NCBI RefSeq assembly: GCF_900176035.1
Contig: NZ_FWWT01000017.1
Location: forward strand, 62,001 to 126,000
From: Desulfonispora thiosulfatigenes DSM 11270
GTDB lineage: Bacteria; Bacillota; Peptococcia; Peptococcales; Desulfonisporaceae
Length of the DNA: 64,000 nt
Direction: 5' to 3'
Part shown: positions 2,148 through 58,164 of the stretch, in pieces
Numbering within the stretch: position 1 is the first letter of the stretch
Layout of the letters: each line of letters starts with the position of its first letter
Made by a program: the position numbers and the translations under genes
Notes under the pieces: generated by a model
Database searches by the model: none
Told to the model about the DNA's origin: nothing
What the model saw: the letters and a program-made list of their open reading frames with translations, nothing else

Positions 2148-3539
2148 CTATTCCCCCATTTTATCTTTAGGTGTAGGAGTAGTTAGCAAACTAACTACAA
2201 TTAAAACAATCGTACTAGTTAAAACTCCGAACATAATAGGAGTAGTTGTTGTTTCTCCTGTTATAAGTATTATACTTATAATTACCAATGAACTAGATAT
2301 TATAGAAGCTATAGCTCCTTGCCAATTAGCCCTTTTCCAAAAGAAACCAGCCATTATTGGTGCAAATATACTACCAGAAAGAAGGGCATAAGCTATATCT
2401 AATGCAGTTAAAACGTCTTGAATTAAGGTAGCCAGGGTTAATACTATTATACCGACTATCAATGTAGTTACCCTTGATAAGAAAAGATGCTTTTTGGGAG
2501 TTAAATCTTTTTTATAAGGAGCAATTAGATCATTTACAATTAGTGTTGAGGATGCTAAAGTTGTTCCTGTAAATGAAGATATTAAAGCTGAAAGGATACC
2601 TGCTAATACTAATCCTTGAAGTCCAGCGGGCATAACATTAAGTATAACTTCTGGCAAGACACTTTGCCCATTTTCTAATCCAGGAACTAATATAAGACCA
2701 AGTAAACCAACCATTGCCATAGCTACAGACCACGCCATAGTATAAAAGCCAGCTGTAATAGTTCCAACTTTAGCGATTTTTTTGTTTTTAGCTGTAAAAA
2801 CTCTTTGCCAGATATCTTGCCCAATCATTAAACCTAATACAAATAATAGAAAAAATGAAAAAATGTTACTCCACCCAATATGTATGGGATTAAAATACAT
2901 CGGATCAAGTTGGTTTGTTAAAGTGGAAAAACCACCTATTTTCCCTAAACCAATAGGTATAAGGAGGAAGAAAACCCCTACAGTCATAAGCACAAACTGT
3001 ATAACATCAGTAATAGCTAAAGAACACATGCCTCCTGCAAATGTATAAAGTAAAGCAATACTACCTCCTATTAGGATTGAAGTTACTAGAGGTAAACCAA
3101 ATAGAGAACTAAGAACTGTACCAACAGCAATAATTGCATTAACTGCAATCATAGCGGTATAGATTGCTGATATTACAGCACTTATTAATTTAGTGTTTAC
3201 ATCATATCGTAATCCTAACATTTCACTTAAACTTAATATTCTTAAATTTGATAATTTAGTAGTCATAAGGAAACCTAAACCCAAGATTCCAACCCCAAAC
3301 ATTACAACCATCCAAGATCCAGATATTCCATAAGTATAACCGAGCTTAGCTCCTCCAAAGGTTGCTCCACCGCCAATTATTATCGTGCACAAACAAGGAA
3401 AATATACCCACATGGGAAATGATCTCCCACCTACTAAGTAGTCTTCATTAGTTTTTGCTTTTCTAGATCCGATATAACCAGCTGCTATCATTATTCCAAA
3501 GTAAAATATTATAATTAAATAATCTAGGGTTGAAGCCAT
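2148..3539 (-). CDS. Sodium:solute symporter family transporter (SSS/SLC5)
   Basis: Predicted cation-coupled uptake permease of 463 residues with about 13 hydrophobic segments. SSS-family hallmarks are visible: an N-terminal DYLVGGRSFP stretch (about residues 33-42), the GGGATFG loop in the second/third segment, and a QFVLMTVGVF-type segment in the middle. The substrate cannot be read from sequence. Its start lies two bases after the stop of the ureohydrolase gene on the same strand, so both should form one operon, which suggests uptake of the guanidino compound or amine handled by that enzyme. The upstream sigma-54 promoter would drive both genes. Family call firm, substrate inferred. Confidence 0.88.
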   Translation of the reverse strand: MASTLDYLIIIFYFGIMIAAGYIGSRKAKTNEDYLVGGRSFPMWVYFPCLCTIIIGGGATFGGAKLGYTYGISGSWMVVMFGVGILGLGFLMTTKLSNLRILSLSEMLGLRYDVNTKLISAVISAIYTAMIAVNAIIAVGTVLSSLFGLPLVTSILIGGSIALLYTFAGGMCSLAITDVIQFVLMTVGVFFLLIPIGLGKIGGFSTLTNQLDPMYFNPIHIGWSNIFSFFLLFVLGLMIGQDIWQRVFTAKNKKIAKVGTITAGFYTMAWSVAMAMVGLLGLILVPGLENGQSVLPEVILNVMPAGLQGLVLAGILSALISSFTGTTLASSTLIVNDLIAPYKKDLTPKKHLFLSRVTTLIVGIIVLTLATLIQDVLTALDIAYALLSGSIFAPIMAGFFWKRANWQGAIASIISSSLVIISIILITGETTTTPIMFGVLTSTIVLIVVSLLTTPTPKDKMGE

Positions 3540-3541
3540 AT

Positions 3542-4498
3542 CTATCCCCTCCTAATTTTTTTGTTTAAGGCGATTAAGGATATAAACTCATACATTAACC
3601 CTGCAGCAGCAAAAGAAGTAATTTTACTAGGATCACTAGCTGGTAATACTTCAACTAGGTCGTAGCCAATTACATTTTTTTCTCTTAAACCTTTCTGAAC
3701 AATTTGTTGAGCTTCCCAAGTGGTAAATCCTCCTATTTCAGGTGTTCCTGTTCCGGGAGCATAAGCAGCATCTAAGAAATCAATATCAAAAGAAACAAAT
3801 ATAGGCTTATCTTGGGTTCTTTCTCTAATTTTTTTAATCGTTTCAGGGATACCAATTGTATGTAGTTCTGGTCCAGTTATAACCTCTAAACCTAAATCTT
3901 TAGCATCTTGTAAATTTTGAGGTTCATATAGATGTCCCCTAATACCTACTTGGATAGAGTTTTCTGGTATTAATAGATTTTCTTCAATGGCACGTCTAAA
4001 AGTAGTTCCATGATTATATTTTTTACCAAAGAATGAATCATAAGTATCGCTGTGCGAGTCAAACTGTACAAGGGCTACCGGTCCATATTTTTTTGCAGCT
4101 GCCCTTAACTCTGCTAAAGTAATGGAATGGTCTCCTCCCATCACGATAGGAATAATACCTTTTTCAAATACAGGTGTTAACCCTTCTTCGATATTATGAT
4201 AGGTTTCTTCTATATAGCCTGGAACAGTATTAATATCACCATAATCAACACCTGAACAATAATCAAAAATATTAACATCAAGTACAGGGTTATAAGGCTT
4301 TATAATTGTAGAGCATTGGCGTATAGCCTGAGGACCAAAACGACTTCCGGTATTATAAGAACAAGCAGTATCAAAAGGAATTCCTGTAACAATAAAATCA
4401 ACATCTTCTAAAGTTTTTACATTTGGTAAACGCATAAAGGTTGTTACTCCGGAAAATCTTGGAGATTCTAATGAATTTGCAGGTTTGTACTTAATCAT
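3542..4498 (-). CDS. Agmatinase-family ureohydrolase
   Basis: Mn-dependent hydrolase of the arginase/agmatinase superfamily, expected to split urea from agmatine, guanidinobutyrate or a related guanidino compound in the cytosol. The 318-residue protein carries GGDHSIT, FDSHSDTYD and SFDIDFLDAAYAPGTGTP, which hold the His and Asp ligands of the binuclear metal site. The second motif reads D-S-H-S-D rather than the commoner D-A-H-x-D. GGGGG upstream supports the ATG start. It is the first gene of a two-gene operon with the symporter, behind a -24/-12 promoter. It could be agmatinase, guanidinobutyrase or a guanidine hydrolase; sequence alone does not decide. Confidence 0.88.
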   Translation of the reverse strand: MIKYKPANSLESPRFSGVTTFMRLPNVKTLEDVDFIVTGIPFDTACSYNTGSRFGPQAIRQCSTIIKPYNPVLDVNIFDYCSGVDYGDINTVPGYIEETYHNIEEGLTPVFEKGIIPIVMGGDHSITLAELRAAAKKYGPVALVQFDSHSDTYDSFFGKKYNHGTTFRRAIEENLLIPENSIQVGIRGHLYEPQNLQDAKDLGLEVITGPELHTIGIPETIKKIRERTQDKPIFVSFDIDFLDAAYAPGTGTPEIGGFTTWEAQQIVQKGLREKNVIGYDLVEVLPASDPSKITSFAAAGLMYEFISLIALNKKIRRG

Positions 4499-4545
4499 AA
4501 ATAATTCCCCCTTAATTTTCTTCTCAAACTATACTTATATTAATA

Positions 4546-4562
4546 TGCAAGAATCATGCCAA
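4546..4562 (-). promoter_or_regulatory. Sigma-54 (-24/-12) promoter for the ureohydrolase-symporter operon
   Basis: Read on the minus strand the site is TTGGCATGATTCTTGCA, with the invariant GG and GC separated by exactly ten bases, matching the YTGGCAC-N5-TTGCW consensus at nearly every position. It lies about 48-64 bases upstream of the ureohydrolase ATG. The sigma-54 activator gene is next door and rpoN is downstream of the operon. Confidence 0.85.
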
Positions 4563-4613
4563 CATAATAAAACCAATAGTTATAGTCTTAATTAGTTTAC
4601 ATAAATTTATTAA

Positions 4614-4629
4614 TATTCAATTTTGAATA
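4614..4629. promoter_or_regulatory. Candidate activator-binding palindrome, copy 1
   Basis: TATTCA-N4-TGAATA inverted repeat (in fact TATTCAA-TT-TTGAATA), centred about 85 bases upstream of the expected sigma-54 transcription start. The same half-sites with the same spacing recur at 4691-4706. Position and symmetry fit an upstream activating site for a Fis-type HTH dimer. Confidence 0.6.
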
Positions 4630-4680
4630 AAAGAATAGACTTAGAAGAAAATAAACCTGGGAAAACATAAATAAATGAAA

Positions 4681-4716
4681 TAATAGTTATTATTCAGGGT
4701 TGAATAATAACTATTA
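4681..4716. promoter_or_regulatory. Candidate activator-binding palindrome, copy 2, inside a 36-base perfect hairpin
   Basis: Perfect inverted repeat with 16-base arms (TAATAGTTATTATTCA and its complement) around GGGT. Its core at 4691-4706 is TATTCA-N4-TGAATA, the same as copy 1 about 77 bases away. It begins 20 bases past the stop of the activator gene on the minus strand, so it may also act as that gene's terminator, although the following T-run is poor. Confidence 0.6.
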
Positions 4717-4736
4717 GAATTATTTATATATGAATA

Positions 4737-6122
4737 CTACTTTATATATTTTTTTATCTTTCGTACAGCAGTAGGTTGGCTAATACCTAAAGCCTCAGCT
4801 ACACCAATAGTGGTTTTAAATTCTTCATAAGCTTTTTGTACCATGTTTTTTTCTAACAATTCGATAGCTTCAGGTAAATTGAGACTTATGCTAATTTTAT
4901 CTAAAAAGGATACTGTTATATTCTCAGGTAAAGTTTCTGTTGTAATTACTTCACCATCTGATGTAACAATACAGCGTTCAATCACATTTTGTAATTGACG
5001 CACATTACCTGGAAAATCATACGATAGGAGTTCATTTATTGCTTGACTAGAAAAATACTTATTTCTATTATATTTGATATTTAATTGTTCTAAAAAGTGC
5101 AGAATTAAAGGGAGGATATCTTCTTTTCGTTCCCTGAGGGGAGGTATATGTATGGGTACAACATTTATTCGATAGTAAAGATCTTCGCGAAATTGACCTT
5201 TATTTATTAATTCATTTAAATCTTTATTTGTAGCAGTTATCAGTCTGAAATCAACCTTTATACTTTTAGTATCGCCTATCTTAGTTAGCGTTTTATCTTG
5301 AAGGACTTTAAGTAATTTTACCTGTAGTGCTAGTGGCAATTCTCCTATTTCATCTAAAAAAAGTGTACCTTTATGAGCAAGCTCAATTAAACCAATTTTG
5401 CCTTTTTGTTGTGCTCCTGTGAATGCACCTGGAACATAACCAAACAACTCGGACTCAATTAAATTTTCAGGAATAGCACCACAATTAATTTCAATAAAAG
5501 GCTCTTTATCTCTGATGCTTTTTTGATGAATTAATTGAGCAATTAAATTTTTACCTACGCCAGATTCTCCAGTAATGATCACATTCGTATCTACAAGGGC
5601 TACCTTTAATGCATAATTAAGTACCTTTTGCATTGATTTGCTTTTTGAAATTATTCCAGGAAAATTCAAGTCTTTTTCTCTTAATTCTCTAATTTCGGAA
5701 GAATATTGATCTACTAATTTTTCCATCTTATCGTACTCATTTTTTAAAATAAAAAATTCATCTGGATCAAAAGTATAACTTATTATTAATTCAAGTTCTT
5801 TATTATTATTAAAAGTAGGAATTCCAGTAGCAATTAAACTCTTGCCCTTTTTATTTTTCTCTAATACTGTTGTTTTTTGTTTGCTTTTAATTACTTGGGC
5901 AGCAACTGAAGGATAAAATATACCTTTATTTGCTACTTCATAAGTAGTTTTTCCTAAAATCTCTTCTTTCCTAATACTATAAGATTCTTCAAAACAAGGA
6001 CTAACCCAAAGGATAACTCCTTTATTATCAAGAACAACAACATTATTATACATAGATTTAAGTAAGTTAAATAAATTATTATCCTGTAATAACAAGGTTT
6101 GTTTCTTTATATATTTTTCCAC
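4737..6122 (-). CDS. Sigma-54-dependent transcriptional activator (PAS-AAA+-Fis)
   Basis: Enhancer-binding protein of 461 residues. Order of parts: PAS-like sensor (about 20-125), a coiled linker (125-150), the AAA+ domain with Walker A GESGVGKN (185-192), the sigma-54-contacting GAFTGA (232-237) and Walker B TLFLDEI (253-259), and a Fis-type HTH (about 440-461). There is no receiver domain, so it probably senses a small ligand or redox state through the PAS domain. Start: in-frame ATG codons lie upstream at 6167 and 6140, but AGGAGG lies inside that extension and sits 6-7 bases before the GTG at 6122, so the GTG is preferred. It is upstream of, and codirectional with, the sigma-54-type ureohydrolase-symporter operon and most likely controls it. 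Confidence 0.92.
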   Translation of the reverse strand: MEKYIKKQTLLLQDNNLFNLLKSMYNNVVVLDNKGVILWVSPCFEESYSIRKEEILGKTTYEVANKGIFYPSVAAQVIKSKQKTTVLEKNKKGKSLIATGIPTFNNNKELELIISYTFDPDEFFILKNEYDKMEKLVDQYSSEIRELREKDLNFPGIISKSKSMQKVLNYALKVALVDTNVIITGESGVGKNLIAQLIHQKSIRDKEPFIEINCGAIPENLIESELFGYVPGAFTGAQQKGKIGLIELAHKGTLFLDEIGELPLALQVKLLKVLQDKTLTKIGDTKSIKVDFRLITATNKDLNELINKGQFREDLYYRINVVPIHIPPLRERKEDILPLILHFLEQLNIKYNRNKYFSSQAINELLSYDFPGNVRQLQNVIERCIVTSDGEVITTETLPENITVSFLDKISISLNLPEAIELLEKNMVQKAYEEFKTTIGVAEALGISQPTAVRKIKKYIK

Positions 6123-6198
6123 ACAAAATTTCCTCCTCATAGGTATTATTGTGTATATGTAATACAAAAAATATAAGTTTGAGAATTAACAGCATTAC

Positions 6199-11890: not shown

Positions 11891-11926
11891 GTATTTGTGG
11901 TAAAATAATAAGAGGGGAGGTTGGTC

Positions 11927-13750
11927 ATGAAAAGAATTCTAATATTGTTAGTAGTTATTTTATTTACCTTGGTTGGATGTACTCAAGACAAAATAAAAGA
12001 TAATCAAGTTTATGTAGTAGAAGATAATCCTAGTAGTGAGGGTGAAAATGTACAAAATGATTTAGTCACTAAAGGTCTTATACCTTTTGAAGAATATGAA
12101 TACTCAAATGAAGATGAAGAATATGGTCAAATTTTATTAACAATTTCACCAGATAGCAATTATAAATATTATATGGAAATAGAACAAAATACAAAAAAGC
12201 ATGAAATGATTAAGGGTGCAAATATAGAATTAGTTAAAATAATAAAAGTGAATATAAAAAATCAAGAAGAAAAGGTAATCGCGGAAAGTGTACCTTTTAT
12301 TTCTCAAGTAAAATGGAATAAAGATGGAACTATCGTGGGATTTTGTGGTGGCGATAGATTAACGATATATGACACTATTAATAGTAAATTATTATTAGAA
12401 GAAAAACTTTTAAATGATGAGATATCTTATTTTGCGTGGTCACCTAAAGAAGTAAATAAATTATATACAGAACAATCAAGTTTAGCTAATGGTAGTATCT
12501 ATTATACGGATCTGCAAAAGAAGCTTGAATCTTATGAAACGAAGGAAGATATTTATTATAAAGGAAATTTAGATAATAGATATCATTATGCAACGAAGTG
12601 GTTTGTTGTTGATGAAAAGGATAAATTAAAAACTAAAAGAGATAGTATAAATACAGTTGTAGTAAATGATAAGGGCTTAATTGTTAAAGGTTTAGGTGAG
12701 GGAAGATTTAGAGATTCTTATAAAAAGTCAGTAGTCAAAATTGGTGAAAATGGCTTTGGTTTATATTATATTAAGGATATAAATAATCCTGGGAAAACTA
12801 AAAAATTAACTAAGGAATACATTTACGATGTAAAATTCGTAGGTGATGGAAAAATAGCTTATCTTGTAGATGACAAGGATATTAATAAAAATTATTTTCT
12901 CTTAAAGATAATTGATAAAAATGGCAATTTTATTGATGAATTTGAAGTTTCAGGAGGAAATCTAGCTTTAGCACCTAATGGAAAAACAGGTTATATTGGA
13001 GGACCTTTATTAGAAAAGATAAACTTTGAAACTAATGAAATCTCGTATAAAAGAAATATAAATGATTATAATCAGGAAAAAAATCATCAAGCAAAAGTAT
13101 TTAGAACAATAAGAGGAGCTATGGATACACTGTATCAGTTTGAATTGTCTAACAAAAAGAGCTATGAGGCAGTAGAAGAGTATTATATTGATAGCTTATC
13201 ACCCGAACAATGGGCTTATTTTGATTTAAGTACTAACTTTAAAGAAAATAATGCACTTGTTAAAGAAGAAGCTTATAATTTAGAAATACTTATTAAAGAA
13301 GTAAAGGATGATTTTAAAACTAATAAAGCTTCTTATTTAATTAGGGTAGAAGCTAAAGATGCCACAGGACAAGAACAAGTAAGAGAACATTCTTTAGAAC
13401 TTTTAAAAAAGGATAACAATTGGTATGTTACAGGAATGAGTACCTTTCCTGATAGCAAAGAAAGATATATTGTCGAAAGAATTGTAAATAAATATGTGGT
13501 AGATGCTCAAAAGGGAAAACTGTTTCCTAAAGTAATAGAAGATAAAGAGGTAAGTGTAGGACAAGTTCAATTTTGGAGTGCTAGTATGCCTCATTTAGCA
13601 TCAAAAGTATCTAATGCAAGTTATGCTAAGGTGTATTTAATCGTAGGGAATCAGAAAGAAGAAATTTATAAATTAGTCCTCGAAAAGAAAAATAAAACCT
13701 GGAAACCAATAGCTTTAGAAAAGGAAAATTTGAGTAGCTTGTTACCTTGA
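11927..13750 (+). CDS. Large lipoprotein of unknown function
   Basis: About 607-residue predicted lipoprotein: signal peptide with lipobox LVGC (Cys about 18). The middle part has spaced beta-rich segments reminiscent of a propeller (for example FAWSPKEVNKLY and LALAPNGKTGYIGG), and there is a C-terminal region (about 390-607) of mixed alpha/beta character that may be a separate domain. I recognise no enzyme motif and give no function. ATG at 11927 is preferred over TTG at 11921, since AGGGGAGG ends six bases before the ATG. It follows the acidic mini-lipoprotein after a terminator; the two may still be functionally linked. Confidence 0.8.
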   Translation: MKRILILLVVILFTLVGCTQDKIKDNQVYVVEDNPSSEGENVQNDLVTKGLIPFEEYEYSNEDEEYGQILLTISPDSNYKYYMEIEQNTKKHEMIKGANIELVKIIKVNIKNQEEKVIAESVPFISQVKWNKDGTIVGFCGGDRLTIYDTINSKLLLEEKLLNDEISYFAWSPKEVNKLYTEQSSLANGSIYYTDLQKKLESYETKEDIYYKGNLDNRYHYATKWFVVDEKDKLKTKRDSINTVVVNDKGLIVKGLGEGRFRDSYKKSVVKIGENGFGLYYIKDINNPGKTKKLTKEYIYDVKFVGDGKIAYLVDDKDINKNYFLLKIIDKNGNFIDEFEVSGGNLALAPNGKTGYIGGPLLEKINFETNEISYKRNINDYNQEKNHQAKVFRTIRGAMDTLYQFELSNKKSYEAVEEYYIDSLSPEQWAYFDLSTNFKENNALVKEEAYNLEILIKEVKDDFKTNKASYLIRVEAKDATGQEQVREHSLELLKKDNNWYVTGMSTFPDSKERYIVERIVNKYVVDAQKGKLFPKVIEDKEVSVGQVQFWSASMPHLASKVSNASYAKVYLIVGNQKEEIYKLVLEKKNKTWKPIALEKENLSSLLP

Positions 13751-20788: not shown

Positions 20789-21505
20789 TCAAATCCTATT
20801 CATTAATTTTAACAATCCATGAATTACAGCTTGAGGAGATGGAGGACAACCTGGAATATATAAATCTACGGGTAATATTTTGTTTAAGCTTTCAAAATTA
20901 CCATAACAATCTTTAAATATTCCACCATCATAAGCACAACTTCCCATGGCGATTACCATTTTAGGCTCTGCTGTAGCATCATAGGTTTTTAAAAGAGCAT
21001 CCTTCATATTAAGAGTAACAGGTCCTGTAATAACTAACCCATCGGAATGTCGAGGAGAAGCTGCTACCTTTATGCCAAATCTGGAAGCGGCATAAAAGGT
21101 ATTTTGGGTAGCTGCAAGTTCTAACAAACAAGCTTCACAAGATCCTGTATCTACAGAACGTAACACTAAAGAACGATTAAATTTTTGATAAATTTTCTTT
21201 TTTAGTTCTAAGGCACTAGTTTCTAAATCATTAAAATGAGCTAGTTTACAATCATTTAACATAGTCAGTGCATTTTCGGGACAAGTCGAGATACAGTTAC
21301 GACAATAGATACAATGATCTTGATTAACTACGATTTTCGCGTTCTTAATTTCAATTGCCTTAACTAAACAGCTTTTTTGGCACTTGCCACACAAAGTGCA
21401 TTTTTTTTCATCAATTAATAGTTCCCCATAAGAATGAGGATTTTCATATAAGACATTTTTAACAGTTTCAGTTTTATTTTTTAATCTATCTAATAGATTT
21501 CGCAT
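20789..21505 (-). CDS. Ehr complex: ferredoxin-NuoB fusion subunit (HyfH/HyfI-like)
   Basis: Electron-transfer subunit of a complex-I-like membrane complex. The 238-residue protein joins two parts: a 2x[4Fe-4S] ferredoxin domain (Cys 36, 39, 42, 46 and 65, 68, 71, 75) and a NuoB/HyfI-type domain (about 110-238) with all four ligands of the terminal [4Fe-4S] cluster (Cys123, Cys126, Cys190, Cys220). In hydrogenase-4 these are separate proteins. I chose ATG at 21505 with AGGTAGGA before it; TTG at 21511 is possible. Last gene of the six-gene operon, about nine bases after the large-subunit gene. Confidence 0.88.
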   Translation of the reverse strand: MRNLLDRLKNKTETVKNVLYENPHSYGELLIDEKKCTLCGKCQKSCLVKAIEIKNAKIVVNQDHCIYCRNCISTCPENALTMLNDCKLAHFNDLETSALELKKKIYQKFNRSLVLRSVDTGSCEACLLELAATQNTFYAASRFGIKVAASPRHSDGLVITGPVTLNMKDALLKTYDATAEPKMVIAMGSCAYDGGIFKDCYGNFESLNKILPVDLYIPGCPPSPQAVIHGLLKLMNRI

Positions 21506-21514
21506 AATCAATTC

Positions 21515-23080
21515 CTACCTATCATTTTCAGAATATGACATATTAAAGGATTTATTACAAAGCGGAAAATCAGGTACAATTTCCCCAAGGACAACTTCAG
21601 CTAAACCATGAAAACTAGTAAAAGAAGGGGTTTTAAAGTAGAGGCGATTAAATTTATTGTCTTTACCAACTTGGCCATAAACCACTAGTTCGCCTTTAAC
21701 TGTTTCCACAGCTACTATTGCTTCCATTCCTTCTTTAAGATTTAGAGGGGTCTTTTTCCTTTTAAGATCAGTCTTAATATAAGAAGTGGCTTTTTCTATG
21801 AACTTAAAAGAATCTTTAATTTCCTCAATTTTAATTTTATACCGTTCAAATGCCCCGCCAATTATTTCGGTATGATTACCTTCTTTTAATTCAGGGTATA
21901 TTTCATAACCAAACTTTGTACGAACATCGGTATTAAGGCCACTAGCCCGTGCTACTACACCAGTTAAACAAAACTTCCTAGCTGCATCTGTATCAAGCAT
22001 GCCTGTACTTTCTGTCCTATCTAAAAAAGTAACGTTATCTGTAGCTAAATGAAAAATAGTAGTTAAGCGCACTTTAATACTTGTAAGGGTTTCTTTAATA
22101 TCCATAATATCTTTTTGGGTAAAATCTATATTAGATCCTAAAGGAATAATAGCATTACGAATAAAGCGGCTACCGGTTACCCTTTCACATAACTGATGAA
22201 TAATTTCTGCAAAATATTCAAACTTCTTTGCTGGATAGCTAAAGCCAACATCAGTGCAAATTCCCCCTATATCCCCTAGAAAATTATAGATTCGCTCTAA
22301 TTCTAATAAGATAACCCTAAGTGCTTGAATTTCTTTGGGTGGTGTGTAATTAAGCATTTTTTCGACTAAGAGTGCAAAGCTTTCTCCATAACTTACAGAG
22401 CATTCACCTGATACCCTTTCGAAAACTAAATTAAGATTATTAGCATCTACATTTTCAGCTAATTTTTCAATGCCTCTATGTTTATACATTAATCTAACTT
22501 CTAGGTTTTCTATGTCTTCACCAATAGCACTAAAGCGAAAATGACCAGGGCCTATAATTCCTGCATGTACTGGTCCTGCAAAGATTTGATGGCCTCCACC
22601 GGTTACTTCTTTATAAGGATACCTAGAGAACTCATTACTCTCTTTTATCTTTTGACCAAAGGCAAATTCTTTACGTAAAGGAAAAACATCTTTAGGCCAT
22701 TTTTCATGTTTTACTATAGGCCTAGTATCTAAACCATTTTTTATAGAGATACCATATAAATCACTAATTTCGCGTTCATATAAATAGCTTTGAAAAATTA
22801 TATTTTGCAAAGAATTAAGTTCTTTTTCTGTAGGATAATCTATTTTCACAAAACAGGGACATTCTCTGCTTACAAATAAAATACTAATTATAAAGATATC
22901 CTTTTCTTGTCTTGCAAACTCCGCTAAAAATCTTATGCTAAATTCTTTGAGCAACTGATCGACTAGAGTTACTATTTTTTCCTTAGTTGTAGTAATATGA
23001 ATCTCGTTTCCCAGGGAAATCGTTAAATCTAAAGCATTATCATATTCTTTAATTTGTCGACTTAAAACATCGATGTCCAT
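21515..23080 (-). CDS. Ehr complex: NuoC-NuoD-like large subunit lacking NiFe ligands
   Basis: Fused 30-kDa (NuoC-like, about 1-140) and 49-kDa/hydrogenase large-subunit (about 160-521) protein, as in HyfG/HycE. True NiFe hydrogenases have RxCGxC near the middle and DPCxxC near the end. Here the first motif reads R222-V-S-G-E-C227 (first Cys replaced by Ser, following His by Tyr231), and the end reads D504-F-P-L-C-N, with no Cys in the canonical positions. At most one or two of four ligands remain, so hydrogenase activity is unlikely. AAGGAGGT precedes the ATG. The overall fold motifs (HRGIEKLAE, DRTESTGML) are kept, so it is not a decayed gene. Confidence 0.9.
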   Translation of the reverse strand: MDIDVLSRQIKEYDNALDLTISLGNEIHITTTKEKIVTLVDQLLKEFSIRFLAEFARQEKDIFIISILFVSRECPCFVKIDYPTEKELNSLQNIIFQSYLYEREISDLYGISIKNGLDTRPIVKHEKWPKDVFPLRKEFAFGQKIKESNEFSRYPYKEVTGGGHQIFAGPVHAGIIGPGHFRFSAIGEDIENLEVRLMYKHRGIEKLAENVDANNLNLVFERVSGECSVSYGESFALLVEKMLNYTPPKEIQALRVILLELERIYNFLGDIGGICTDVGFSYPAKKFEYFAEIIHQLCERVTGSRFIRNAIIPLGSNIDFTQKDIMDIKETLTSIKVRLTTIFHLATDNVTFLDRTESTGMLDTDAARKFCLTGVVARASGLNTDVRTKFGYEIYPELKEGNHTEIIGGAFERYKIKIEEIKDSFKFIEKATSYIKTDLKRKKTPLNLKEGMEAIVAVETVKGELVVYGQVGKDNKFNRLYFKTPSFTSFHGLAEVVLGEIVPDFPLCNKSFNMSYSENDR

Positions 23081-23092
23081 AAGTTTACCTCC

Positions 23093-24550
23093 TTAACCAC
23101 CGATTATAAGAGCAGCTCGATTGATAATAGTTAAAATAGGTTCTTTATAAGGTATGCTAATAAAAATCATTAAAATAAGTGTTAAGCATAAAGGGAAAAT
23201 ATTTTCATTATCTTTATACGATTTAGTGGATTCTTGTTCGCTGCTGCTAAAAATCATTTTTGTAAAGGCATTAATAAATCCTGAAAATACGAGTAGTAGA
23301 CAGAGAACGTAAATAAAGATTGTAATATAGTGACCACTTTCAATGCCAGCTATTAAAATGAAGAACTCGCTATAAAATGAAGCAAAAGGTGGAACACCTG
23401 TAATAGCTAGGACCCCCAGTATTAAAAAGACTGCATTTTTAGGCATTGTTTTAATTAAAGTATGAATATTATTAATTCTTCTAGTTTTATATAGTCCGAA
23501 GATATTACCCAAGGTTAAAAATAATAAAGTTTTAGTAAAGGCATGAATTAAGGAATGTAAGAGAGCACCAAAGGTACCTAAAAATCCTCCGATTCCAATA
23601 CCTAAAGACATAATTCCAATGTTTTCAACAGATGAAAAAGCTAATAAGCGTAAATAATTTGTTTGTCTTAATAAACTAAAGGCTGAAACTATTAAAGATA
23701 TAGCACCAAAAACAATAAATAAATATTTTAAATTAATTAAACTTTCAATATTATTAACAATAGCATAAAATCTAATAATTACATAAAGAGCTAGATTGTG
23801 TAATACCCCTGCTAAAAGAGCATTAATTGGAGCAGGTGCTTCACTATGAGTTTGCGGTGACCAAGTATGCATAGGAGCTAGACCAGCTTTTGTACCAATT
23901 CCTACGAAAATAAATGTAAAAGCAACTAGTACTACATTTTTATCTAAGAACTCATAATTTTTCATTAAGTAATCCCAGTGGACTGCTTGATTTGGATCTA
24001 ATGTATTAGCTGAATAAATAAATATTACAATTCCTACAAAGCCTAAACTTATTCCAATAGAACAAATAATTATATATTTCCAAGCTGCTTCTAATGATAG
24101 CTTACTTCTATTAAAACCAATTAAAAAGGCAGTAGAAATTGTTGTAGCCTCAATAGATATCCACATAGCTACAATATTATTTGTAATACTTGTTAGCACC
24201 ATAGATAGATAAAAAACAACTAACATAAAATAAAAGAGTTTAGCATTAGCCAAATTAATAGTATCTTCCTTAATTTCATTTTTGAGATATTTATAGGAAT
24301 AAATAAGAGAAATTAAAGCAACAAAACTAACAATTAATAGTTGAATAACACTTAAACTATCAATATAGATAAAGTCATTAAATAAGGTTAATGATTGATG
24401 GTGGTAGATATATTCAGTAACCTGTAATGTAATTATAGATATTGCAATAGAACCTAAAATATTAATAAGCGACATCCATTTTAACTCAGTAAATAATACT
24501 GTACCCACAATCATGATTATAAAAATAATACTCATTATGGAGATAAACAT
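23093..24550 (-). CDS. Ehr complex: antiporter-like subunit (HyfF/NuoN-like)
   Basis: Membrane proton/sodium-translocating subunit of 485 residues with about 13-14 hydrophobic segments. The conserved antiporter-family stretch FVGIGTKAGLAPMHTWSPQTHSEAPAPINALLAG (about 218-250) holds the key Lys; the conserved Glu lies in AMWISIEATTIS (about 130-140). The family includes HyfF, NuoN/NuoM and Mrp subunits. It lies between the HyfE-like and large-subunit genes with gaps of about 12 bases. Expected to pump ions when electrons flow through the soluble arm. Confidence 0.88.
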   Translation of the reverse strand: MFISIMSIIFIIMIVGTVLFTELKWMSLINILGSIAISIITLQVTEYIYHHQSLTLFNDFIYIDSLSVIQLLIVSFVALISLIYSYKYLKNEIKEDTINLANAKLFYFMLVVFYLSMVLTSITNNIVAMWISIEATTISTAFLIGFNRSKLSLEAAWKYIIICSIGISLGFVGIVIFIYSANTLDPNQAVHWDYLMKNYEFLDKNVVLVAFTFIFVGIGTKAGLAPMHTWSPQTHSEAPAPINALLAGVLHNLALYVIIRFYAIVNNIESLINLKYLFIVFGAISLIVSAFSLLRQTNYLRLLAFSSVENIGIMSLGIGIGGFLGTFGALLHSLIHAFTKTLLFLTLGNIFGLYKTRRINNIHTLIKTMPKNAVFLILGVLAITGVPPFASFYSEFFILIAGIESGHYITIFIYVLCLLLVFSGFINAFTKMIFSSSEQESTKSYKDNENIFPLCLTLILMIFISIPYKEPILTIINRAALIIGG

Positions 24551-24561
24551 AACAACACCTA

Positions 24562-25188
24562 CTATTCTTCAGGATTTGAAAAATGATCTGTATTAATAGT
24601 TTGGAATGTTTTGTTTATATGAAAAATCATAATTCCCATAATTAATGCTAAAAGCAATCCTTCTAGAATAATTACAGATTCAATTATTAAAGATATATGA
24701 GCAATAGAAGTTTCAATTAAAACAATTCCATTTTCCATCGTTAGAAAACCAATCATTTGCGTAATAGCCTTTTTTCTGGTAATGATTAAAAAAGCTCCAA
24801 TAATCATTATTACTCCACCTGTTGTTAGCAGATAGTTATGTGCATCTTGGAGAAAATAGTAAGTCATTACGACTGCAAATGAAGCCAAAAAATAAGAATT
24901 AAATGGAGTAATCAAAGGACCTAGTTCACGATTATGTTTTAAATTTCGTATAGATGTTCTAATTATATAAGGAATAAAAATTACCTTAGTAATAATACCA
25001 AAGATAGCTAAGGTATAAAAATGACTCTCTCCCGTAGTATAACCTAGATAAATAGAAATACAACTTATCGCTAGCGACTGAAGAGCGAAGGTTTGGGTTA
25101 ATAATTTTATTCTGCGAAAACCAGACATAAATATTGCTGAAGTAAGGATTATCGCAATCAAAATTTCTAATTGAGGTGTTTCTACCAT
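24562..25188 (-). CDS. Ehr complex: HyfE-like membrane subunit
   Basis: A 208-residue protein with about seven hydrophobic segments, matching HyfE-type subunits of hydrogenase-4 in size, position and the motif ALQSLAISCISIYLGYTTG (about 35-53); its C-terminal half resembles NuoK (MENGIVLIETSIAH near residues 150-163). It may help ion translocation or assembly. AAAGGAGG precedes the ATG. Third gene of the operon. Confidence 0.82.
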   Translation of the reverse strand: MVETPQLEILIAIILTSAIFMSGFRRIKLLTQTFALQSLAISCISIYLGYTTGESHFYTLAIFGIITKVIFIPYIIRTSIRNLKHNRELGPLITPFNSYFLASFAVVMTYYFLQDAHNYLLTTGGVIMIIGAFLIITRKKAITQMIGFLTMENGIVLIETSIAHISLIIESVIILEGLLLALIMGIMIFHINKTFQTINTDHFSNPEE

Positions 25189-25200
25189 GAGAATCCTCCT

Positions 25201-26130
25201 TTACATAAAATAGTTGATAGTTAAGGCTACCATAGCAACAGAAAATGCAGAGGCTAATAATTCAGGTACACGAAATAGCCTGAATTTAGCCATAGAAGTT
25301 TCTAAAATGGCGATAATAAACAAGATGCTAATTAGTTTAAGACTAAAGAAAAGCATCCCTTTAAAAATTGAGGCAATAGATAAAGATTCGGCAATTCCAA
25401 AAGGAATAAAGCCATTGATAAATAGGGTTAAGAAGATTATAAATTTTAAATAACTAGAATATTCAATTAGGGCTAAATCACTACCAGACAAATCAAGAAC
25501 CATAGCCTCATGAATCATGGTTAATTCTAAATGTGTTTCAGGATTATCCACAGGAACTCTAGCATTTTCAGCTAAGATAACTATTAAGAAAGCAATCCCA
25601 GTCATAATATGAGCCACAGTATAGTTATTCAGCGTATTATTGATATGAGCTATTTCAAAAAAATTAAAGCTATTAGTTTGAAAATATAAAAAGGTGATAA
25701 TCAAAAACACAACGGGTTCTGCTAAAGTAGAAATAAACATTTCCCTACTTGCCCCTAAGTCTCCAAAACCACTAGCGCAGTCTAAACCAAGCAAAACGTT
25801 TAAAAATTTCATAATACTTAATAAGAAAAAAATCATAAATATGTGACCAAAATAATTATGAGGTAAAGTATAAAAAACAGGAATTAAAAAAGCCGTGGTA
25901 ATAGCTGCCGCAAAGGAAAGAACAGGAGTTAAGAGCGTTATAAAAGAACTACTGTCAGAAATAAATCTTCCTTTTCGAAACAATTTAATAAGATCAAAGT
26001 ATATTTGAAGGATAGGTATCCCTTTGTAACCTCTTAAAAATGCTTTAAACTTTTTTAAGATAGCAATAAATAAAGGAGTAAAAAGTATTAGTAAAATACT
26101 TTGAAAAAAGCACATTAAACTATAAGTCAT
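25201..26130 (-). CDS. Ehr complex: HyfC/NuoH-like membrane subunit
   Basis: A 309-residue membrane protein with about eight hydrophobic segments, related to NuoH/HyfC/HycD, which links the hydrophilic arm to the antiporter-like subunits. Conserved loops are visible: FLRGYKGIPILQIYFDLIKL (about 31-50), LAEPVVFL, and the acidic VDNPETHLELTMIHEAM (about 192-208), which carries the Glu residues needed for coupling in complex I. Second gene of the operon; AAGGAGGT before the ATG. Confidence 0.88.
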   Translation of the reverse strand: MTYSLMCFFQSILLILFTPLFIAILKKFKAFLRGYKGIPILQIYFDLIKLFRKGRFISDSSSFITLLTPVLSFAAAITTAFLIPVFYTLPHNYFGHIFMIFFLLSIMKFLNVLLGLDCASGFGDLGASREMFISTLAEPVVFLIITFLYFQTNSFNFFEIAHINNTLNNYTVAHIMTGIAFLIVILAENARVPVDNPETHLELTMIHEAMVLDLSGSDLALIEYSSYLKFIIFLTLFINGFIPFGIAESLSIASIFKGMLFFSLKLISILFIIAILETSMAKFRLFRVPELLASAFSVAMVALTINYFM

Positions 26131-26140
26131 GAGAACCTCC

Positions 26141-27907
26141 TTAGATAAAATTTATAACCAAGATTAAAGTAACAATTAGAGAAACAAAGATATATAAAAT
26201 ATTTAACTGTATTCTACCGTAATTTACCTTATCAATAATTTTTGATAAGAAATAAATAATGCTAATGACACCTTTATAAATATAAGTTTCAATTATATCT
26301 ATCGTTTTTTGTTCAACATGAACAGTAGTATCAATGGAAATTTCTTTCTTATATCCTACATAATTACCTAAAACTCTTGTTAGAGGCTGAGAAAAACCGT
26401 CTCCAGAATACTGTAATTTTGATGTTACATTATTAAAACCACAAGCCCAAGTTTTATTAGTAGATTTAATAGTTCGTTTATTAGTAATATTGGTTAAGAC
26501 AAAGGTCAATAAAACAATGGCAAGAAATACAAAGATAACAATAGTTAATTCGTTACTTAATATTATAAGTGGTACATCAAAAGTAGTTTGTAAAATAGAA
26601 GATGATACAGTATTTGCAATTTTATTAACAGCTAAAGGAGCAAATAGTCCCAAAAGAAGAGCATAAAGACTAGTAATACCTAATGCAGAATTCATAGAAG
26701 GTGGAATTTTGTGAGTATCTATGGCTTTAGATGTCCTAGGTTCACCTAAATATGTTATCCCAAAACTTTTAACTGCCGCATACATAGCTCCTGCACTAGT
26801 AAGGGCTAAGAGAATTCCACATCCAATAATGAGAAAGATTAATTCAGTACTTGTTATAGAATTAAGTGCACTAATAAAGCTTTTAAAGATTAAAACTTCA
26901 CTAGCAAAACCATTAAGAGGAGGTAAGGAAGAAACTGCTATTGTTCCGATAAATGCACAATAAGTAGCAAACTTCATTTTTCGCTGCAAGCCACCTAGTT
27001 CATCCATATTTTGAGTACCAGTACTATATATAACACTACCCACACTCATAAAAAGAATACTTTTAAAAACAGTATGGTTTAAGGAATGAAATAAAGCAGC
27101 GCTTAAAGCTATGATAGCTAAGATATGCTGATTTTCACTTTTAAATATTATAGAAAGCCCAATAGCTGCAAAAATAATACCGACATGTTCTGCGCTAGAA
27201 TAAGATAACAATCTTTTTATATCCTTTTGCATAAGAGCATTGAGTATTGAATAGATAGCAGTAATTATTCCAACTATCATCACGATAAGGCCTAAATTAG
27301 AATAAAAATCTCCTATAAAATCAAAGCACACTCTTATAAAACCATAGATAGACATTTTGGCCATTAAACTTGACATAAGTGCAGAAACATTTGATGGTGC
27401 TGCAGGGTAAGCTTTTGGAATCCAAGCATGAAAAGGTAATAATCCTGCTTTTGCACCAAAGCCAAATAAGGCTAAAAAAAAGAGCAATGTTTGTTGACTG
27501 CTTGTTAAAAGGTTTGTTTTTTGGCTAATTTCAGAAAATTCAAATGAACCTGTGTACTTATAAAGGCATGCAAACATTACCATTAGAAAAAGTCCGCTGA
27601 TATGTGTCATGATGAAGTACATGATTCCAGATGTAATGTTTGTGCTTTTTTTATATTCATAGATAACTAAGAAAAACGAAAGCGTTGACATTAACTCCCA
27701 AAAAACTAAGAAAACAATACTATTATTTGCTAATGCTACTCCTAGCATAGAAAGAATAAAAAGTAATGTCATGGCAAGTATATATTTAATAGAATATTCA
27801 CCACTATATTGTTTAACAAATCCTATAGAGTAGATCCAAACAGGTATAGCAGTAAAACAGATTAAAAAGGCAAAAAAAATTGACAGATTGTCAGTTAATA
27901 AAAACAT
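26141..27907 (-). CDS. Ehr complex: HyfB/NuoL-like antiporter subunit
   Basis: First gene of the operon: a 588-residue membrane protein with about 14-16 hydrophobic segments. It has the antiporter motif FGFGAKAGLLPFHAWIPKAYPAAPSNVSALMSS with the conserved Lys (about 150-180) and the Glu in VFWELMSTLSFFLV (about 66-80). HyfB/HycC is the closest type by length and order. I moved the start to the second Met (27907), because GGAAGGAG sits six bases before it, while the longer form at 27937 has no ribosome site. A sigma-A-like promoter lies 40-70 bases upstream. Confidence 0.88.
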   Translation of the reverse strand: MFLLTDNLSIFFAFLICFTAIPVWIYSIGFVKQYSGEYSIKYILAMTLLFILSMLGVALANNSIVFLVFWELMSTLSFFLVIYEYKKSTNITSGIMYFIMTHISGLFLMVMFACLYKYTGSFEFSEISQKTNLLTSSQQTLLFFLALFGFGAKAGLLPFHAWIPKAYPAAPSNVSALMSSLMAKMSIYGFIRVCFDFIGDFYSNLGLIVMIVGIITAIYSILNALMQKDIKRLLSYSSAEHVGIIFAAIGLSIIFKSENQHILAIIALSAALFHSLNHTVFKSILFMSVGSVIYSTGTQNMDELGGLQRKMKFATYCAFIGTIAVSSLPPLNGFASEVLIFKSFISALNSITSTELIFLIIGCGILLALTSAGAMYAAVKSFGITYLGEPRTSKAIDTHKIPPSMNSALGITSLYALLLGLFAPLAVNKIANTVSSSILQTTFDVPLIILSNELTIVIFVFLAIVLLTFVLTNITNKRTIKSTNKTWACGFNNVTSKLQYSGDGFSQPLTRVLGNYVGYKKEISIDTTVHVEQKTIDIIETYIYKGVISIIYFLSKIIDKVNYGRIQLNILYIFVSLIVTLILVINFI

Positions 27908-28223
27908 ATATTTCTCCTTCCTGAAAAGTTTTTTCATAACAATTTAATTATATATTGTATTAGTAGGGTTACCAAGATTAAAATAACTTTAAATTAGGTA
28001 TAAAACCTTGAAATAGACGGTGTAGAGTAAAAGGATAGTGAGTTGCTTTAATTACCTTCAAAATATTGCTGTTTTCATTAGTTTTAAACGATATTAAAAA
28101 GGTTTATAATATTCCCTACTTAATATTATAAATTAACAGTAGAAAAAACTCCATTGTTATAGTATAGTATATTAAAAAATCACTCTTTTATATAACTGAA
28201 TCTTTTAAATAGGGGGAAAAGTT
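27908..28223. other. Divergent intergenic region between the Ehr operon and ilvD
   Basis: A 316-base, very AT-rich stretch. It holds a good minus-strand promoter for the Ehr operon (27947-27975). For ilvD I see only weak signals (TTAACA at 28133 with TATAGT at 28158, spacing 19). No T-box, leucine leader peptide, riboswitch or small ORF with a ribosome site was found. Confidence 0.6.
27947..27975 (-). promoter_or_regulatory. Promoter of the Ehr operon
   Basis: On the minus strand TTGGTA, 17 bases, TATAAT, about 40 bases before the HyfB-like start codon. Confidence 0.55.
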
Positions 28224-56532: not shown

Positions 56533-58164
56533 TTAAATTAATTTAGCAATATCATTTTCTACAGTATCAATTCCACTAATATTAAATGTTTCAACTAAGA
56601 AGTTTACTACTGTAGGAGATAAGAATGCTGGTAATGTAGGTCCTAAGTGAATATTTTTAACACCTAGATATAAAAGAGCTAGTAAAACTGTAACTGCTTT
56701 TTGCTCATACCATGCAATATTATATACAATTGGTAATTCATTGATATCTTCTAATTCAAAAGCTTCTTTTAATTTTAATGCTATTACAGCTAATGAATAA
56801 GAATCATTACACTGTCCAGCATCTAAAACTCTTGGAATTCCACCAATATCGCCTAAATCAAGTTTATTGTAACGATATTTAGCACAACCAGCAGTAAGAA
56901 TAACCGTATCTTGTGGTAATTTTTTAGCAAAATCAGTATAGTATTCTCTAGACTTCATTCTACCATCGCAACCAGCCATTACAACGAACTTTTTAATTGC
57001 GCCTGATTTTACGGCATCGATAACTTTATCAGCTAAAGAAAGAACAGTGCTATGTGCAAAACCGCCTACAATTTCTCCAGTTTCAATTTCTGTTGGAGCA
57101 GGACAAGTTTTAGCTAATTCAATAATTTCAGAAAAGTCTTTTTCTCCTTCTTTGCCGGTGATATGCTTTACTCCAGCAAATCCAACTACACTTGTAGTAA
57201 ATATTCTATCTTTATATGAATCACGAGGAGGAATAATACAGTTAGTAGTCATTAAAATAGGACCATTAAATGATTCGAATTCTTTATTTTGTAACCACCA
57301 AGCATTTCCGTAATTACCTTTGAAATTATCATATTTCTTAAATTCTGGGTAATAGTGAGCTGGAAGCATTTCACCGTGAGTATATACATCTACTCCACTA
57401 TCTTTAGTTTGTTTTAATAATTGCTCTAAATCTTTTAAATCATGTCCACTAATCAGTATTCCAGGGTTAGTGTCTACGCCAATATTTACTTTTGTGATTT
57501 CTGGAGTACCGTAAGTTTCAGTATTAGCTTTGTCTAATAAAGCCATTACATCTACAGCAAATTTTCCACATTCTACAACTAAAGCTATTAATTGATCAAG
57601 TGGTAACTCTTCGGTAGTGGATTTTAAACCTTTTTTCATAAAATTAAAAATACTTTCATCCTTATAGCCAAGTACATAAGCATGCTTGGCATAAGCAGCC
57701 ATTCCTTTAATTCCATAAGTTAAAAGTTCTCTTAAAGATCTAATATCTTCGTTTTCAGCAGCTAAAATACCAATATACTGTGCTTTTTCTTTCATTTCAT
57801 CTTCTGAATCTGTATACCATGAAGCTGCATCATGAAATTCGTCTACTTTTACATCTTTGGCCAATAATTCCTTTTTAAGTTCTTCTTTTAAGCTTAAACC
57901 CTCTTTAATCTTAGCTAAAATTACATGATCATCGAAGTTAGCATTAGTAATAGTCATAAATAAGCTTTCCATGATATAGAAATCATATTTTTTTGTATCA
58001 AATCCTAATTCGTCTGCTTTAAGAGCATAAATAGAAAGTCCCTTCGCTACATAGATTACTAAATCTTGTAGTCTAGCAGTTTGATCTTCTTTACCACACA
58101 CACCTCTTACTGAACAACCTTTTCCTGCGGCAGTTTCTTGACACTGATAGCAAAACATACTCAT
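56533..58164 (-). CDS. hcp: Hydroxylamine reductase / hybrid-cluster protein
   Basis: Cytosolic Fe-S protein of 543 residues linked to nitric oxide and hydroxylamine detoxification. The N-terminal cluster ligands C5-xx-C8, C17 and C23 are present ([25 protein letters not shown]), as are the hybrid-cluster regions [39 protein letters not shown] and [20 protein letters not shown] before the ATG. Promoter with a palindrome between -35 and -10 upstream, Rrf2 regulator gene downstream. Confidence 0.96.

Follow-up and report, generated by a model that had tools for sequence, protein, structure and literature searches.

The DNA analysed here is a stretch of 64,000 nucleotides from Desulfonispora thiosulfatigenes DSM 11270 (assembly GCF_900176035.1, contig NZ_FWWT01000017.1, positions 62,001 to 126,000), referred to below as the window. 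It contains an operon for a complex of the Ehr type, related to the group 4 [NiFe] hydrogenases, whose large subunit has lost most of the residues that hold the NiFe centre. Six intact open reading frames (ORFs) follow one another between 27907 and 20789 of the minus strand, separated by spacers of 3-12 bp. Matches to Pfam and NCBIfam identify their products as membrane subunits of the Hyf/complex-I type, a large subunit of the NuoC+NuoD type and a small subunit that combines two [4Fe-4S] motifs with a NuoB-type domain. The order HyfB-C-E-F-G-(H/I), which an initial annotation had read from the letters of the window, is borne out by these matches, and the frames are closely spaced. The features of the operon, in window coordinates, are as follows.

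27947..27975, minus strand: putative sigma-70-type promoter, TTGGTA-17-TATAAT, directly upstream of the operon (10/12 consensus matches)
26141..27907, minus strand: hyfB/EhrA-like antiporter-type membrane subunit, 588 amino acids from the ATG at 27907 (Proton_antipo_M, 3e-56)
25201..26130, minus strand: hyfC/NuoH-like membrane subunit (EhrB), 309 amino acids, with the motif ENARVPVDNPETHLE (NADHdh, 1e-31)
24562..25188, minus strand: hyfE-like small membrane subunit (EhrC), 208 amino acids (NCBIfam hydrogenase 4 membrane subunit, 2e-21)
23093..24550, minus strand: hyfF-like second antiporter-type subunit (EhrD), 485 amino acids (NCBIfam hydrogenase 4 subunit F, 402 bits)
21515..23080, minus strand: large subunit EhrL, a NuoC+NuoD fusion, 521 amino acids (141 bits to HycE, 7z0s_E, by sequence)
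20789..21511, minus strand: small subunit EhrS, ferredoxin-type domain plus NuoB-like domain (Fer4 and Oxidored_q6)

The hyfB-like ORF is open to 27937, and we prefer the internal ATG at 27907 as its start because a strong ribosome-binding site, AGGAAGGAG, precedes it. The start codon of EhrS is TTG or, alternatively, the ATG two codons further in. The promoter is a weak prediction since the region overall holds fewer such matches than shuffled sequences do. A chance grouping of the six genes is excluded, because the six genes recur in the same order in Clostridium relatives and at many other Ehr loci; the order B-C-E-F-L-S in the window is the A-B-C-D-L-S order seen at most of the Ehr loci that are complete. 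Base composition gave no sign of recent transfer: the GC content of the operon and its GC content at third codon positions equal those of the window, and the loci of the relatives are about as AT-rich.

EhrL was aligned to HycE and to 30 other large subunits. Whereas group 4 [NiFe] hydrogenases have four cysteines in the motifs RxCGxC and DPCxxC, EhrL has S224, C227, S515 and E518 at these positions. The first motif is RVSGEC at residues 222-227, with Ser224 at the first cysteine position and Cys227 at the second, just as the initial annotation had it. The second motif had been assigned to D-F-P-L-C-N at residues 504-509, which proved to be off register. DPCYSC of HycE aligns to NMSYSE at EhrL 513-518 (SLDPCYSCTDR in HycE versus SFNMSYSENDR in EhrL), and DFPLCN lies upstream of the C-terminal ligand motif, inside a strongly conserved PDFPLINKS stretch. 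By sequence, then, the NiFe site is absent from EhrL, and the loss goes beyond what had been claimed, with three of the four ligands replaced; ligand cysteines are also missing in most Ehr. The glutamate gate of group 4 hydrogenases (MbhL E21 type) is absent as well, for Gly177 (codon GGC) stands where Glu is found in 121 of the 121 Ehr rows compared. Lys462 occupies the position of the Arg of the PRG motif. A one-base sequencing error behind Gly177 is unlikely, since going from GGC to a Glu codon takes two base changes.

Two cysteines of EhrL were considered as retained NiFe ligands and rejected: C508 falls outside the ligand positions in the alignment, and the position of C227 is Ser in the clade. 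Within the Clostridium-type clade cysteine at 227 occurs in the window copy only, its relatives there having serine; Cys227 looks like a secondary gain, which fits the just two changes of this state that parsimony gives over the tree of large subunits described below. Cysteine at position 508 (window 21557-21559) is found in 22 of the 76 Ehr that lack the full four-Cys site and in none of the 24 four-Cys Ehr, with at least six changes on the tree, and a new thiol may have arisen there repeatedly, close to the old NiFe site.

An AlphaFold2 model of EhrL (predicted local distance difference test, 86; predicted template modelling score, 0.89) has HycE as its best match among solved folds (7z0s_E, template modelling score 0.87), followed by NuoCD. 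Confidence is low at residues 159-181, and part of this segment aligns to the loop of complex I that faces the membrane arm.

In EhrS all twelve cysteines of three clusters are kept, namely the eight ferredoxin-type cysteines of two N-terminal [4Fe-4S] motifs (Cys 38-48 and Cys 67-77) and C125, C128, C192 and C222 of the proximal cluster. Because the proximal motif, C125xxC128, can be aligned to HycG and MbhJ with no gap, coordination of this cluster by four cysteines is expected. The fusion of the ferredoxin domain to the NuoB-like subunit had been described as unusual; it turned out to be ordinary in the Bacillota, where most sampled Ehr carry the N-terminal motifs, four-Cys and NiFe-less forms alike. 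Many proteobacterial and nitrospirotal Ehr, and also those of candidate phyla, are NiFe-less and have an EhrS of ~170 amino acids without ferredoxin motifs. Since these motifs are absent, electron input in the short-EhrS forms must differ from that in the Bacillota forms, and the absent fusion in aerobes is more curious than its presence in Bacillota Ehr.

The membrane arm is also preserved. The hyfB-like subunit matches NCBIfam hydrogenase 4 subunit B with 521 bits, and its best match in the PDB is HycC (7z0s_C, 190 bits). For EhrB and EhrD the best PDB matches are HycD (7z0s_D, 105 bits) and MbhH (6cfw_H, 127 bits), respectively, and relatives have the EhrC gene in the same place. Candidate ion-path residues are Glu81, Lys163, Lys194 and Lys292 in the hyfB-like subunit (598-amino-acid numbering) and Glu134, Lys221 and Lys340 in EhrD, where Asn252 takes the position of the Lys in transmembrane helix 8 of MbhH. 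Two antiporter-type subunits are thus present, as first described, and by alignment both keep most of their charged ion-path residues; that they pump ions is something we infer. The best solved relatives of EhrL, EhrS and the HyfB- and HyfC-like subunits all belong to the E. coli formate hydrogenlyase/Hyf group (group 4a). Unlike formate hydrogenlyase and Hyf, the window operon is without NiFe ligands, a C-terminal processing peptide and a formate dehydrogenase.

In a tree of 115 large subunits, including Ehr, Hyc-type hydrogenases and NuoD, the Ehr proteins group together in a clade of 100 rows (support 100), apart from the Hyc-type hydrogenases and NuoD, and the window EhrL falls inside it. 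The assignment to the Ehr type made from the letters alone therefore stands. The clade splits into four-Cys forms and forms without the four cysteines. The second group (74 rows, support 96) holds the window EhrL, within a Clostridium-type sub-clade of 11 rows (support 100). A long stem (1.5 changes per column) leads to this sub-clade and makes its precise placement within the NiFe-less Ehr uncertain. A separate loss of NiFe from within the four-Cys group was rejected, modestly, when the correspondingly joined tree was compared (approximately unbiased test, p 0.0275). Over the sampled Ehr, parsimony requires the four-Cys state to have changed at least three times. Like the Ehr of Geobacter, Desulfotomaculum, Nitrospira and others, the window complex has the six-gene set in the same order, missing NiFe ligands, a C-terminus at the ligand motif and an NKSF motif.

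The first Ehr were recognised in Geobacter; most members of the family lack the NiFe ligands, and one in Desulfotomaculum ruminis has all four cysteines (PMC3569383). The family also occurs in lineages sibling to Cyanobacteria (PMC6349859), in comammox Nitrospira (PMC10284858) and in ammonia-oxidising archaea (PMC10432482). None of these four papers establishes an activity or substrate for Ehr, and a wider literature search found none, in agreement with the initial annotation. Partial losses of the ligands were seen elsewhere in the family. The EhrL of Desulfosporosinus UBA8487 (L092) has S, C, S and C at the ligand positions, both first cysteines having changed to serine and both second ones being kept, and judged by these residues it is a possible intermediate in the loss of NiFe; another partial loss is L113 (FELFYSC). 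The large subunits of four-Cys Ehr such as L008 and L117 end exactly at CxxCxDR, without a C-terminal peptide for a maturation protease.

The Ehr family itself was already known; what is new is a conserved clostridial sub-family whose carriers are mostly without the menaquinone markers that we tested. The nearest named relative of the window EhrL comes from Clostridium muellerianum P21 (58% identity). Of 207 genomes that belong to the family of this species, 15 encode an EhrL whose matched part is 57-66% identical to the window EhrL. Thirteen of these carriers have the complete set of six genes, and the loci of the remaining two are at contig ends. The 391 genomes of the class gave three further carriers, one of them a fragment, and no second copy of the Clostridium-type Ehr was found in 398 genomes of the window's own phylum. 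To all other Ehr the window EhrL is only ~35% identical. The ligand positions of the sub-family are S or A, S, S and E, nearly fixed across the clade, in contrast to S, x, S and G in other Ehr, and sites otherwise conserved in Ehr are changed (R250E, D409G and R462K). In a survey of acetogens from the genus Clostridium, 'hypothetical group 4' hydrogenases in C. carboxidivorans and C. scatologenes were set aside (PMC9431212). Matched by genus and description, these group 4f hydrogenases are probably the Clostridium-type Ehr operon. A gene for a double-MarR protein of ~340 amino acids lies near the operon in 12 of the 15 Clostridium loci, in the flanks that were fetched (for example L033:3746-4774); it was not seen in the window.

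Selection on the six genes was measured as the ratio of nonsynonymous to synonymous substitution rates (dN/dS). Each of the six genes had a dN/dS near 0.1 in the Clostridium relatives. Between close relatives dN/dS was ~0.05-0.2 for nearly all genes and pairs, the exceptions being a few EhrS values based on small dS, and the constraint on EhrL and EhrS was similar to that on the membrane genes. The earlier statement that the rest of the complex is kept under selection agrees with these values. Taken as a whole, the observations of the initial annotation are partly confirmed, and its interpretation is supported.

We believe that the operon probably encodes an Ehr-type member of the complex-I superfamily that acts as a ferredoxin-fed, redox-driven ion pump, with a terminal reaction other than proton reduction at NiFe, although this reading of the sequences leaves considerable room for doubt. 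The two [4Fe-4S] clusters of EhrS would receive electrons from reduced ferredoxin, or from a comparable donor of low potential, and pass them on to the hydrogenase-type proximal cluster. An acceptor entering the chamber of EhrL, EhrS and EhrB would then be reduced, replacing proton reduction at a [NiFe] centre that cannot form, and this step would power the transport of ions through the pair of antiporter-type subunits. Several points weigh against such a pump. Only the window copy has Gly177, so it may differ from its relatives. Selection was measured in the Clostridium relatives rather than in the window's lineage, and no closer copy was found. In addition, no genes for donor or acceptor enzymes adjoin the operon in the window, and none do so consistently in the relatives.

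One alternative is that the complex is a ferredoxin:menaquinone oxidoreductase, effectively a small complex I. The genome of the window's organism encodes a bona fide MenD, which scores 477 bits, and a Nuo operon of 11 genes, and the organism probably makes menaquinone; for this reason it could in principle differ from the rest of the sub-family in its acceptor. The complex also shares the superfamily fold and the KGEL motif with respiratory complex I (NuoD/NuoH/NuoL), and ETVKGEL of EhrL is closer to the ExxKGEL of NuoD/NdhH than to other Ehr. However, EhrL lies outside the NuoD clade, and its residues aligned to H38 and Y87 of Nqo4, which belong to the quinone-headgroup site, are neither His nor Tyr. 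In place of the tandem CC of NuoB, complex I having adjacent cysteines here (PMC7684303), the proximal motif of EhrS reads CxxC, and Nuo is already present in the genome. Among the 15 Clostridium carriers, MenD was above the cut-off in 2 and MqnA/D in 0; both markers were missing in 13, for which genome completeness was not stated, and it is unlikely that assembly gaps alone produced 13 joint absences. UbiA prenyltransferases were rejected as a quinone marker, being uninformative (present in 18 of 20 genomes). Since 13 of the 15 carriers are without MenD above the cut-off and without MqnA/D, menaquinone is unlikely as the acceptor of the whole sub-family, and we consider this alternative improbable for the operon.

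The complex might instead work like MBS of archaea and reduce sulfane sulfur or polysulfide, using its proximal Fe-S cluster as the catalyst. MBS belongs to the same superfamily and functions without NiFe, two of the NiFe ligands having been lost (PMC7684303). The key Glu is missing in the window copy as in MBS, but it is present in all sampled relatives. The activity of MBS is ascribed to a three-Cys proximal cluster, which results from a motif three residues shorter and leaves one iron without a Cys ligand (PMC7684303); by this description MBS is set apart from the window complex, whose proximal motif has no gap against the hydrogenases. As in both MBH and MBS of Pyrococcus furiosus, a ferredoxin-type Fe-S chain would lead into a chamber above a pumping arm. 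Unlike MBH the complex has no NiFe, unlike MBS it has a hydrogenase-type proximal motif, and unlike both it has no separate genes for an Mrp-type Na+ module in the operon. We regard an MBS-like reductase as quite improbable.

In principle the enzymes of this superfamily can run in either direction, which the sequence does not fix. An ion gradient could thus drive the reduction of ferredoxin from a donor of higher potential, but no gene for such a donor enzyme is linked to the operon, and we strongly doubt this mode of operation.

A cation/proton antiporter with a vestigial redox arm would account for antiporter residues that are kept while the NiFe ligands, the gate Glu and the pocket Arg are lost. 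The NiFe-less Ehr of Geobacter has been called nonfunctional and under relaxed selection (PMC13194489), a statement that should not be generalised because of the low dN/dS in the Clostridium-type sub-family. The twelve motif cysteines and the fused ferredoxin domain are kept, and EhrL and EhrS are constrained about as much as the membrane genes, which makes this explanation very improbable.

Finally, a search for hyp maturation genes, which had been proposed along with the initial annotation, found a hypABFDE-type operon elsewhere in the genome. The genome also encodes two NiFe hydrogenases whose ligand motifs are intact, the first ~12 kb before the window and the second on contig 23. These account for the hyp genes, and the hyp operon was rejected as a sign of NiFe in Ehr. 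A true hydrogenase with altered ligands, which the hyp operon might have favoured, can be dismissed in view of the lost ligands and of relatives that have no Cys at any ligand position.

For a ferredoxin-fed pump, the acceptor would be other than protons at a NiFe site and, in most carriers, other than menaquinone from a known pathway. It is probably not a quinone, and the likeliest candidates are small oxidants, soluble or hydrophobic, for example organic or sulfur compounds. As a tentative and rather doubtful extension, the Clostridium-type Ehr could form a separate active class of energy-coupling complexes in anaerobes, in which ferredoxin oxidation is coupled to ion pumping in organisms that have no quinones, through a remodelled Ser/Glu pocket where the NiFe site used to be and an acceptor new to the complex-I superfamily.

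Elsewhere in the window, a gene for a hybrid-cluster protein (prismane family) lies at 56533-58164, an arginase-family gene adjoins a sodium:solute symporter and a sigma-54 activator at 2148-6167, and an ORF of 609 amino acids at 11921-13750 has zero Pfam matches.

Ehr complexes are widespread, being found in nitrifiers, archaea, sulfate reducers and candidate phyla. Most of the clostridial carriers are apparently without a quinone. The default acceptor thereby falls away, and the question of which reaction Ehr carries out can be tested in organisms that are often amenable to culture and genetic engineering. The strong purifying selection on all six genes argues that loss of NiFe is not loss of function. 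If ion pumping is true, the complex would be an additional energy-conserving site in fermenting or acetogenic clostridia.

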